Shown: positions 17,987 to 26,622 of the stretch, one piece after another
How positions within the stretch are numbered: position 1 is the first letter of the stretch
Layout: every line of letters starts with the position of its first letter
Assembly (NCBI RefSeq): GCF_000877395.1
Contig: NZ_JYFE01000017.1
Location: forward strand, 62,001-126,000
Length of the DNA: 64,000 bases
Origin: Jannaschia aquimarina
GTDB lineage: Bacteria > Pseudomonadota > Alphaproteobacteria > Rhodobacterales > Rhodobacteraceae
Reading direction: 5' to 3'
Program-made: the position numbers and the translations under genes
The notes under the pieces: generated by a model
The model's input: only the letters and a program-made list of their open reading frames with translations
The model's database searches: none
Told to the model about the DNA's origin: nothing

Positions 17987-18748
17987 ATGCGCGCACTCCT
18001 GCTTCTTCTTGCCCTTCTGGCGCCGCCTGCCGCGGCCCGGCAGGATGAGTGCGTCATCCTGCTACACGGCCTCGCGCGGAGCGACTATTCGTTCCTGCTG
18101 ATGGAAACCGCGCTGGTGGCCGAGGGATATCGCGTGGTCAACGTGGACTACGACTCGACGAGTGCGGATATCCGGACGCTCTCGGTCTCGATCATACCGC
18201 CGGCGTTGCGGGGGTGTGAGGGGACGGGACGTATCCACTTCGTTACCCATTCCATGGGCGGTATCATCGTCCGGGCCTGGGCGGATGCGAACGAGATGCC
18301 GACAGGCCGCACGGTGATGCTGGCGCCCCCCAATCAGGGATCGGAACTCGTCGACACCCTGGAAGAGATCCCGCCATTCGACTGGATCAACGGCCCGGCG
18401 GGGGGGCAACTCGGCACCGACGGCCTGCCGTCCGAGTTGGGACCGGTCTGGCCGGGCGTGGGCGTGATTGCCGGGAACCGGTCCCTGTCTGCGATCTATT
18501 CGACGATCCTGACCGGGCCGGACGACGGCAAGGTGACGGTCGAGTCCACCCGCGTGGAAGGCATGGCGGATCACATCATCTTGCCGGTGACGCACACGTT
18601 CATGATGAATTCGCCGCTCGTGATCGCAGAAACGCTGCACTTTCTTGAACACGGTGAGTTCGACGTCGACCTGGACATGACGGATGCCGTCGAGACGCTG
18701 CTCCCCGACAATATGGGGCAGGCGGTGGATCAGTTGCTCGCGGATTGA
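17987..18748 (+). CDS. Secreted alpha/beta-hydrolase (lipase/esterase-like)
   Basis: The 253-residue precursor has a signal peptide (residues 1-18, ending PAAARQ), an oxyanion strand [10 protein letters not shown] and the nucleophile elbow THSMGG with S89. A His in PVTHTFMM near 203 is the likely catalytic base. This is the layout of small periplasmic lipases such as LipA-like alpha/beta hydrolases. The natural ester is unknown. Its last 19 bases overlap the convergent FAD-linked oxidase gene. Confidence 0.85.
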
Positions 18749-23840: not shown

Positions 23841-25268
23841 TCAAGCTGCCATATCTTTGAGCAGTTCGGGAATCCGGGAGAGATCGTCCCGGAATCGCTC
23901 CGTCTCGCGAGCGCGGTCCTCTTCGCCCGGTAGGCGCAGAAGGTAGGAGGGATGCACCGTTATCAGAACCGGGCGGCCGTCGCGGGTCTTCTCGACACCG
24001 CCCCGACGCTTCAGCAGGCCGGCCCCGTTCCCCGTCAACGCATGAAGCGCCGTCGCGCCCAGAGCCACGCACAGGTCCGGATCGACTGCCGTCAATTCCT
24101 GCTCCAGCCACCAGCGACATGCGCTGACTTCCGATGCGGCGGGCTTCTGATGGATCCGACGCCGACCACGTTGCACGAATTTGAAGTGCTTCACCGCATT
24201 GGTGACGTAGAGTTCGGACCGGTCCAGACCCGCGGCGATCGCCTGCTCGTCGAACATCTGGCCGGCGGGGCCCACGAACGGGCGGCCTGCGATGTCTTCC
24301 TTGTCGCCGGGCTGCTCTCCAACGATCATCACGCGCGCGTCCTCAGGCCCTTCGCCGAAAACGATCTGCGTGGCATCCGAGTAGAGCGGGCATCGCGTGC
24401 AGGCCGACGCGCTTTTGGCGAGTTCGGGCAGACCGGATGCGGCGAATAGGTCGGTTTGGCTGTTCATCTGCGCCTCCTGACTGGGCGTAAGGGCACGGGC
24501 TGGACGGGGTGCGTTCGTGACCATCTGGGACACGCGCGCCCGCGCGCCGGCTATCAGATCGGGAATCGCCTGGGCCTCGGGAAGGTTCCGCCAGTATTTC
24601 TTGGGCATCTCGGCCGACATCGCTTTCGGCTTCAGGCGCGCGGGGTTGAAGATGGACTTGTAATAGGTCGTCCAGAGTTCTTCGAGCGGGTCACCTTCCG
24701 CGGGTCTACCGCCCTCGTGAAGCGAGTAGGAAAGCCGCCCCGCCTCGAACGAAATCTTCACATCGGGTGTCGCGATCTCCCAATCCATGTCTCCGAACCT
24801 GTCGGCGAAGAAGCGGCCGACATTCTCTTCGATCCGGTGGTCGGGTTCGAACCACGCCGAAAACCGCCGCCGCCGGCCGTCGCCTTCGACTTCCCGGAAG
24901 CGGAGGAACGCGTGCATCTTGTGAATGTCGCGGCGGACGGACTTTGCGATCTCGTTCGCCCGGGCGACATCCGGGTCGGCGGGGTCCGACAGAAGCCGGG
25001 GGTGGCGCTTCAGCCGCGTCAGCAAGGTGTAGGCCAGTGCCATGCCGCCATTCGACCGATACGGGATCAGGTGGCGGGCCAAGGCAGGGAACGCTTTCGG
25101 GACTGAAAGCATATCGCCTGCGGGCAAGGGGTCCGCGATCAGAGGGGCGGGGTCGGTTTCGAGCCCCCATTCCACGTCGGACGGGGGAATGCCCGCGGCC
25201 GCCAGCCGCCGGGCTGCGTCGCGCCAAGCATCGAACGTTCCGAGACGGGGAAGGCGCGGTGCGAACAT
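23841..25268 (-). CDS. UdgX-type uracil-DNA glycosylase fused to N-terminal DUF4130
   Basis: The 475-residue protein joins an N-terminal DUF4130 module (about residues 1-250) to a C-terminal family 4-like uracil-DNA glycosylase. The latter has four Fe-S Cys (C290, C293, C384, C400), motif GEQPGDKED at 317-325 and HPSYLLR near 439. R-R-R-I-H ending at H373 is the UdgX-specific loop, whose His in the mycobacterial protein bonds covalently to uracil sites. A QTDLF stretch at 271-275 in the linker resembles the sliding-clamp-binding motif. The ATG at 25268 gives the family N-terminus; a GTG at 25301 is possible. It lies downstream of a radical SAM partner. Confidence 0.9.
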   Translation of the reverse strand: MFAPRLPRLGTFDAWRDAARRLAAAGIPPSDVEWGLETDPAPLIADPLPAGDMLSVPKAFPALARHLIPYRSNGGMALAYTLLTRLKRHPRLLSDPADPDVARANEIAKSVRRDIHKMHAFLRFREVEGDGRRRRFSAWFEPDHRIEENVGRFFADRFGDMDWEIATPDVKISFEAGRLSYSLHEGGRPAEGDPLEELWTTYYKSIFNPARLKPKAMSAEMPKKYWRNLPEAQAIPDLIAGARARVSQMVTNAPRPARALTPSQEAQMNSQTDLFAASGLPELAKSASACTRCPLYSDATQIVFGEGPEDARVMIVGEQPGDKEDIAGRPFVGPAGQMFDEQAIAAGLDRSELYVTNAVKHFKFVQRGRRRIHQKPAASEVSACRWWLEQELTAVDPDLCVALGATALHALTGNGAGLLKRRGGVEKTRDGRPVLITVHPSYLLRLPGEEDRARETERFRDDLSRIPELLKDMAA

Positions 25269-25328
25269 GTCAGCCGAGCCGGGCGATCGAGGCCATTCCA
25301 CTGATCCACTCGAACGTGGGTCCGCCGG

Positions 25329-26558
25329 TCACGCGAACAATTCCATCTGCTGCGGCTTGACGAACCGGTCGCGAAGCGCGGCTCCCTCCAGCATCGGGCC
25401 CGGTCTGTGGGCGCGCGCCACGATGAACGGCCGCGCATTCTTGAGCCGAGCGCCCATGCGGCGCAGATCCTCGAGCGAAAGCGACCCGTTGCGCCGGGCC
25501 TTGAGGATCCGGTCCACGATCCGTGTCCCGAAGCCGGGGACGCGCAACAATGCCTCTTTCGGTGCGCTGTTGACGTCCACCGGAAAGCGGTCTCGGTTCG
25601 ACAGGGCCCAGGCGAGCTTGGGGTCGATATCCAGGTCCAGCATCCCGGCCTGATCGGACAGGATCTCATCGAGAGAGAACTCGTAGAACCGAAGCAGCCA
25701 ATCCGCTTGGTACAAGCGATGCTCTCGCATGAGCGGCGGGTCCTTCAGTGGCAGGACTGCGCTGGCGTCGGGGATCGGTGAGAATGCGGAATAGTAGACC
25801 CGCTTCAGATCGTAGGCGCCGTAGAGCCGGTTTGCATTGCCCAGAACCTGACGGTCCGTCCCGTCATCCGCGCCGACGATCATCTGCGTCGACTGACCGG
25901 CAGAGGCGAATTTTCCCCGGCGGCGACCGGTGTGCGTCCTGTCGGAATAGTCTTCCTTGGTCGCCCTCACGTTCCCCATTGCCTTCCGGATCGAAGCGGC
26001 ATCCTTTTCGGGCGCCAGATCGTTCAATCCGGCGTCGGTGGGCAATTCGATGTTGATCGACAGCCGGTCGGCGGCCAGGCCGGCGCGCTCGATCAGGTCC
26101 GGGCTCGCATCCGGGATCGTCTTCAGATGGACGTAACCACGGAACCCGTTCGCCCGCAGCTTCTCGACGATCAGCACGAGCTGTTCCATCGTGTAGTCGG
26201 GGCTTCGGATGATCCCCGAACTCAGAAAAAGCCCCTCGATGTAGTTCCGGCGATAGAACTCTTCCGTGAGCCAGACCACCTCCTCGACGGTGAAGCGCGC
26301 CCGTCTGACATTCGAGGACCTGCGATTGACGCAGTAGGCGCAGTCGAACACGCAGACATTGGTCATCAGGATTTTCAAAAGCGAGATGCATCGTCCGTCC
26401 GGGGTATAGGCATGGCAAATGCCGGACCCGGTGGTCGATCCCAAGCCGGACCCGTCGCGCGACGATCGCTTGCTGCCACCCGAAGATGCGCAGGACGCAT
26501 CGTACTTGGCGGCGTCCGACAGGATCGCAAGCTTCTGCTGAATCGACATCTTTCCCAT
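25329..26558 (-). CDS. UDG-linked radical SAM protein with helix-hairpin-helix, putative DNA repair
   Basis: The 409-residue protein has the radical SAM cluster motif C69-x3-C73-x2-C76 in a TIM-barrel-like N-terminal part. A C-terminal helix-hairpin-helix at about 328-355 (DVNSAPKEALLRVPGFGTRI) implies DNA binding. This is the profile of the TIGR03916 family found next to UdgX-DUF4130. Its reaction is unknown. The protein ends in QMELFA, a likely sliding-clamp-binding peptide. It is the first gene of the pair; the UdgX start follows 60 bases after its stop. Confidence 0.9.
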   Translation of the reverse strand: MGKMSIQQKLAILSDAAKYDASCASSGGSKRSSRDGSGLGSTTGSGICHAYTPDGRCISLLKILMTNVCVFDCAYCVNRRSSNVRRARFTVEEVVWLTEEFYRRNYIEGLFLSSGIIRSPDYTMEQLVLIVEKLRANGFRGYVHLKTIPDASPDLIERAGLAADRLSINIELPTDAGLNDLAPEKDAASIRKAMGNVRATKEDYSDRTHTGRRRGKFASAGQSTQMIVGADDGTDRQVLGNANRLYGAYDLKRVYYSAFSPIPDASAVLPLKDPPLMREHRLYQADWLLRFYEFSLDEILSDQAGMLDLDIDPKLAWALSNRDRFPVDVNSAPKEALLRVPGFGTRIVDRILKARRNGSLSLEDLRRMGARLKNARPFIVARAHRPGPMLEGAALRDRFVKPQQMELFA

Positions 26559-26622
26559 TTGTTCTTCTTATGTTCCGAAACCCTCGGCCGCAAGATCGAC
26601 CCGTCATTCGACATAGGGGAAA

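Follow-up and report, generated by a model that had tools for sequence, protein, structure and literature searches.

A conserved, putatively clamp-binding tail on the radical SAM partner of DUF4130, in a predicted SOS-controlled repair pair with UdgX as an optional module

The closest described counterpart of the locus treated here is a two-gene operon, COG1573-COG4277, the second member of which we take to be the radical S-adenosylmethionine (SAM) family TIGR03916. This operon, which includes a uracil-DNA glycosylase (UDG) and stands under LexA control, has been called 'putative base excision repair' and was predicted as an SOS operon in Bacteroidetes and, by citation, reported in Verrucomicrobia and Alphaproteobacteria; the accessible part of the main text makes no mention of a sliding clamp (PMC8565304). 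Elsewhere, DUF4130 has been linked with radical SAM and UDG proteins, again with no mention of the clamp in the portion available (PMC3765255), and a radical SAM protein, its family not stated in the accessible passages, has been listed under LexA (PMC7739468, PMC9380542). The gene pair and its SOS control were already known. For the glycosylase, the available part of one paper defines UdgX by motif A (GEQPG), an R-loop KRRIH with the catalytic histidine, and motif B (HPS(S/A)(L/V)(L/V)R), and describes an enzyme that excises uracil and then stays covalently bonded to the abasic site (PMC10359453). We have analysed such a pair in a 64,000-nucleotide stretch of Jannaschia aquimarina (contig NZ_JYFE01000017.1, positions 62,001 to 126,000; hereafter the window) and describe a family-wide peptide at the C-terminus of its radical SAM protein that points to the beta sliding clamp. 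TIGR03916 and DUF4130 constitute a widespread orphan repair pair, found in 31 genomes when 200 of the window's phylum were sampled, and a family-wide clamp-type peptide together with SOS control would indicate where and when this pair may act.

All three NCBIfam families TIGR03914, TIGR03915 and TIGR03916 exceed their cut-offs at the window locus, and both open reading frames (ORFs) are present at the expected positions on the minus strand. The radical SAM gene comes first (25329-26558; 409 aa), followed after a 27-base gap by the gene of a DUF4130-UdgX fusion (23841-25301; 486 aa). Membership of the former in TIGR03916 (rSAM_link_UDG) is established by its score (567.6 bits against a cut-off of 343.5), its CxxxCxxC motif and the adjoining TIGR03915 gene; the latter scores 174.5 bits with TIGR03915 and 321.1 bits with TIGR03914. 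The pairing of a radical SAM protein with UdgX-DUF4130, proposed in an earlier note made from this DNA alone, is thus borne out.

A hexapeptide form of the beta-clamp motif exists beside the pentapeptide, and a conserved clamp-type peptide in a disordered, otherwise unconstrained tail is the usual mark of a clamp hook. The pentapeptide consensus is QL(S/D)LF, as given in the accessible part of PMC9690074. The radical SAM protein of the window does end, as had been noticed, in QMELFA (residues 404-409), that is, in the putative beta-clamp-binding pentapeptide QMELF (residues 404-408; 25335-25349, minus strand) and a final alanine, and its significance derives from the C-termini of relatives. 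These were drawn from five sources: 200 genomes of the window's phylum, of which 31 exceeded the TIGR03916 cut-off and 30 loci were retained; named genomes, in which there were at least 588 matches and the best 80, mostly Alphaproteobacteria by title, were used; plasmid and phage collections, with 158 plasmid and 10 phage records, from which 14 loci were taken; viral contigs, a scan of which gave a single relative; and a search with the UdgX protein, which supplied 60 close relatives. A profile search over 148 loci (window copies included) yielded 149 radical SAM ORFs, 145 of them unique. Setting aside one that represents only the N-terminal part of a split gene leaves 144 readable C-termini. 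A clamp-type peptide lies within the last 60 residues of all 144, as a pentapeptide Q[LM]x[LF][FLWIM] in 126, as a hexapeptide in 13 and in a looser form in five (QASLF twice, QGSLF, QLSIF and QLDMF); in 120 proteins no more than one residue separates it from the stop. An earlier, pattern-based pass gave 134 unique radical SAM proteins from 137 of 146 loci, the remaining nine loci yielding no protein by this pattern. Here the peptide occurred in the last 25 residues of all 134. Among 2005 control ORFs, one had the strict form and 22 had any form; these controls were mechanically defined flanking ORFs of at least 150 aa, non-genes among them, and were compared over the last 25 residues only. 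Over the 50,160 residues of the radical SAM bodies, the pentapeptide pattern was matched 7 times and the hexapeptide pattern 5 times.

Within the C-terminal tail, which has otherwise diverged, the motif stands out as conserved. Its glutamine never varies (4.32 bits) and the fixed positions after it reach 3.35, 3.89 and 2.72 bits, while the preceding 20 residues hold 1.1-2.4 bits; among ten diverse members, mean pairwise identity amounts to 52.5% in the body, 15.7% in the tail minus the motif and 54.2% in the motif. In the predicted model of the window protein the predicted local distance difference test (pLDDT) falls below 50 at residues 404-409. The forms observed, among them QLSLF, QMSLL, QLGFGF and QLLLDF, agree with both penta- and hexapeptide clamp motifs, and the peptide occurs in Pseudomonadota, Bacillota, Bacteroidota and Fusobacteriota as well as, by a single record below the cut-off, in Gemmatimonadota. 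Examples outside Pseudomonadota are Pusillibacter (QLSLF), Fusobacterium (QLKLF), Bacteroides (QLLLDF), Gemmatirosa (QLSLW), Acetoanaerobium (QLSIF), Parabacteroides (QLILPF) and Spirosoma (QLSLF). In one relative (L150) the peptide, at residues 415-419, aligned with the last positions of the TIGR03916 profile; the NCBIfam names and descriptions consulted are silent on it. As a negative control, the tail motif was absent from all nine ORFs retrieved by a search with the spore photoproduct lyase (SPL) family, four of which exceed the SPL cut-off. The radical SAM protein therefore has a flexible segment with a conserved QL(S/D)LF-like peptide, through which, to judge from these alignments, it very probably binds the beta clamp, and the family-wide nature of this predicted link is strongly supported within the sample.

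The earlier note had seen a second putative clamp motif in the UdgX protein, at residues 271-275 of the linker between DUF4130 and UdgX. The peptide, QTDLF, actually occupies residues 282-286 (24444-24458, minus strand) and lies inside a linker modelled with low confidence (pLDDT below 50 at residues 281-285). Among 18 linkers of the genus (the window copy L116 and L117-L133, extracted for 20 genomes, with L135 unextractable and G200 lacking a full-length match), QxDLF is found in 5 and xxDLF, those 5 counted, in 10, whereas 8 have neither. In a wider set of 54 linkers, extracted from 90 loci with a UDG ORF and consisting of the window copy and 53 others, none of the 53 contains a QxxLF-type peptide, and QEMIM appears in one row. 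Unlike the radical SAM tail, the UdgX protein thus lacks a conserved QL(S/D)LF-like peptide; since QxxLF is absent from the other 53 linkers, the window peptide is a genus-level oddity at most, and a second clamp site in the UdgX linker was rejected as a family feature. The xxDLF linkers of the genus could be regarded as possibly degenerate clamp peptides. The original proposal of a clamp link through both proteins consequently gains good support for the radical SAM protein and none for UdgX.

The UdgX domain itself (residues 315-472; 23886-24359, minus strand; PF03167, 117.7 bits) conforms to the definition given above. Its best solved relatives are chains of Mycobacterium smegmatis UdgX (MsmUdgX), to which it is 50-53% identical in the Foldseek rows, with the R-loop and motifs A and B kept. 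Aligned to 6ail, it shows GEQPG, HPSYLLR with tyrosine at the S/A place, and, in place of KRRIH, the R-R-R-I-H loop that had been recognized from the letters (residues 380-384; 24150-24164, minus strand), in which His384 is aligned with the covalent His109 of the mycobacterial enzyme. The two systems differ in that the solved chains comprise about 205-229 residues, whereas the window domain is fused to DUF4130 and adjoined by a radical SAM gene. Of 112 unique fusions, 110 retain the histidine of R[ILM]H (109 by pattern, L070 by its letters); the fused UdgX of the other two, L028 and L078, is without R[ILM]H in the R-loop, which makes them natural candidates for a non-covalent UdgX. A CxxC ahead of the UDG domain is missing in fusions L042, L068, L098 and L110 (and L035), and the Fe-S site may therefore be altered in some lineages. 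Apparent in-frame stops in the UdgX of some relatives, of which seven were checked, each fall within two residues of one or other end of the matched stretch and so give no evidence for broken genes.

The constant partner of the radical SAM protein is DUF4130 (in the window, residues 90-242 of the fusion; 24576-25034, minus strand; PF13566, 133.7 bits). TIGR03916 and TIGR03915 exceed their cut-offs in the identical 31 of the 200 genomes. TIGR03914 (UdgX) does so in 29 genomes, of which 23 are shared with the pair, so that 8 of the 31 pair genomes are without UdgX over cut-off and 6 of the 29 UdgX genomes are without the pair. All eight radical SAM proteins without UdgX retain the peptide (L002 QLALF, L004 QLQLI, L006 QLSLL, L018 QLSLF, L019 QASLF, L025 and L029 QMALW, L030 QMALL). 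A DUF4130 ORF was found in the same stretch at 144 of the 148 radical SAM loci: 114 form a fusion with UDG, 26 are complete and lack UDG, 3 run off the end of the stretch and 1 is accompanied by a separate UDG ORF. Two of the four exceptions, L079 and L146, have less than 1 kb of downstream sequence, and the other two, L114 and L153, have at least 2 kb and no match. In the Bacillota, Bacteroidota and Fusobacteriota loci, DUF4130 is without fused UdgX, the rest of these genomes being unsearched for UdgX. Because the motif persists in pairs that lack UdgX and DUF4130 is near-constant, the clamp link would belong to a radical SAM-DUF4130 core to which UdgX is an add-on, and the focus moves from UdgX chemistry to this core. 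As a separate observation, an N-terminal loop of DUF4130 (window residues ~50-56) has a near-constant L-F (118 L and 122 F in 139 unique segments), mostly followed by A, G or D, which resembles the LF end of a clamp motif without a conserved Q; the window reads PLI here.

A lineage-appropriate LexA operator precedes the pair. According to Table 1 of PMC9578287 and to PMC8565304, in the parts available, the alphaproteobacterial LexA box has the consensus GTTCN7GTTC; in the window it reads GTTCTTCTTATGTTC and is located on the plus strand at 26561-26575, 2 bases upstream of the radical SAM ATG. The same box is present no more than 260 bases from the conserved start region, most often 41-70 bases ahead of it, at 101 of the 114 loci that offer at least 200 upstream bases, whereas random windows of the same loci give a chance level of 3.7%, that is, 4.2 expected. 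Nine of the 13 loci without it are not Alphaproteobacteria (other classes or Xanthomonas), and six of these nine have an E. coli-type CTGTN8ACAG, for which there is no chance estimate; GAACN4GTTC is present at one of three named Bacillota loci. In the window genome the alphaproteobacterial box is also found upstream of recA, lexA and a lexA-family gene below cut-off, a count given without comparison with chance. Two loci without a LexA box of the kinds scanned, L016 and L084, both have a palindrome GTCTCAN5TGAGAC upstream, perhaps a lineage-specific operator or a terminator.

It seems plausible that LexA, acting at the adjacent upstream box, keeps the operon repressed and that, after damage, the radical SAM protein would be made and brought to the beta sliding clamp by its flexible Q-[LM]-x-L-F tail. 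A helix-hairpin-helix (HHH) segment may touch DNA, and radical chemistry, aided by DUF4130, would reverse or remove a base lesion in DNA that is stalled or has just been replicated. In many proteobacteria, including the window organism, the fused UdgX would form an optional uracil-capturing arm of the clamp-bound complex; the radical enzyme is not taken to act on the UdgX-DNA bond. The clamp-type motif, the LexA boxes and the HHH segment are in keeping with replication-coupled repair induced by damage, and an SOS-induced, clamp-recruited radical SAM-DUF4130 repair pair with UdgX as an optional partner is, as far as comparative evidence goes, the probable interpretation. The more detailed proposal, an SOS-induced, clamp-tethered complex of radical SAM protein and DUF4130 that would use radical chemistry to repair lesions directly at or behind the fork, in at least four and probably five phyla, and to which UdgX would add an optional covalent trap for uracil, we regard as evenly poised. 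If true, radical chemistry would join the clamp-recruited repair activities, and the pair would contain, to our knowledge, the first clamp-bound radical SAM repair enzyme.

Several results weigh against this interpretation. Most of the 144 C-termini come from Alphaproteobacteria and are not independent, with about 12 sequences outside Pseudomonadota, and the Gemmatirosa protein scores 302.5 bits, under the TIGR03916 cut-off, and is without the N-terminal cysteines. Four members have the peptide at a distance of 15-34 residues from the stop, so the motif is not strictly terminal. The intended positive control failed: a peptide was present in the last 60 residues of 2 of 29 readable Y-family polymerase ORFs, and the scan alone thus does not single out clamp binders in general; either the motif lies away from the C-terminus in these polymerases or the wrong ORFs were chosen. 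The DUF4130 fold had no match of its own among the best 50 of 505 Foldseek rows, which were UDG-like only, and no substrate or reaction of the TIGR03916/DUF4130 pair was found described in the literature. The supposition that the clamp link had no earlier description agrees with the literature search, which found none; most subscription papers lay outside the search, and with coverage partial in this way a missing description is no proof of novelty. Separately, an ORF with a Y-family polymerase domain in another genome (L190) ends in PDLFGPG, possibly a degenerate clamp peptide.

Since DUF4130 shares the stretch with the radical SAM gene at nearly all loci, the tail could instead be an internal docking device for another protein, such as DUF4130 or UdgX, that merely resembles a clamp motif, and the Y-family polymerases missed by the same scan lend this idea some weight. 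However, the forms vary in keeping with the clamp code (Q, L/M, free, L, F/L/W/I) and include one-residue insertions (QLGFGF, QMALAL, QLLLDF), and the motif is present with or without fused UdgX; we consider such docking improbable. Slightly less doubtful, though still unlikely, is a role of the pair as an accessory of SOS mutagenesis, in which the clamp tail would join error-prone polymerases in translesion synthesis and base modification would favour bypass or mutation. The LexA boxes are compatible with this role, DUF4130 is termed a predicted mutagenesis-related enzyme in the part of PMC3765255 available, and error-prone polymerases belong to the same regulon in the accessible text of PMC8565304. 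Yet no polymerase gene occurs among the ten window neighbours scanned (wider co-occurrence with those polymerases was not searched), and the UdgX fusion points to excision or capture.

The earlier note had also suggested that the radical enzyme might act on the UdgX-DNA bond. Adjacency of the genes, the covalent histidine in nearly all fusions and UdgX over cut-off in 23 of the 31 pair genomes speak for such a resolvase, but DUF4130 is constant while UdgX is missing from eight pair genomes in which the motif persists, six genomes have UdgX without the pair, and the Bacillota, Bacteroidota and Fusobacteriota pairs are without fused UdgX. As the core role of the enzyme, resolution of the covalent bond is therefore disfavoured and appears very improbable, and the clamp-recruited radical SAM-DUF4130 repair pair remains the preferred reading.

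Two other systems invite comparison with this pair. Spore photoproduct lyase (SplB) is likewise a radical SAM enzyme of DNA repair, and the available portion of PMC3765255 refers to a SplB-likeness. This is unsupported by the fold or by the family profile: the best 50 Foldseek rows for the radical SAM model comprise HydE, HydG, BioB, LIAS and others, none named SPL, and the SPL family TIGR03886 has no match in the window genome. The archaeal NreA and NreB proteins carry C-terminal PCNA-interacting peptide (PIP) tails, and NreB adjoins SplB-like genes, according to the accessible part of PMC4929162. They thus share with the window pair a C-terminal peptide of clamp-binding type and the link of a repair protein to a radical SAM gene, but the proteins are others, the clamp is PCNA rather than the beta clamp, and the tail is described on Nre, not on the radical SAM protein. 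TIGR03916 had no match in archaea among 14 control genomes, four archaea included; the control genome of Caulobacter vibrioides is matched by all three families, with a score stated to exceed the cut-off for TIGR03915.

Further features of the radical SAM protein concern its metal sites and DNA contacts. The CxxxCxxC of the radical SAM cluster occupies residues 69-76 (26331-26354, minus strand), and its three cysteines are invariant in two family alignments. Ahead of it lie C23, C48 (with H49 next) and C57 (26388-26492, minus strand), possible auxiliary Fe-S ligands; this pattern is kept in 140 of 142 unique proteins that cover the region, the exceptions being L076 and L114, and the three additional cysteines suggest a second Fe-S site. 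A radical SAM enzyme with a helix-hairpin-helix had been described for this locus, of which the cluster motif is firm; the HHH segment (residues 327-358; 25485-25580, minus strand) is matched by HHH_3 at 22.9 bits, under the Pfam cut-off of 27, and weakly resembles chains of ComEA and RuvA (E 0.026 and up). Around the pair, between positions 18730 and 31456 of the window, genes of stress type are found, encoding trehalose synthase and phosphatase domains, a nucleotidyl transferase, and DUF3618, DUF892 and DUF2383 proteins.

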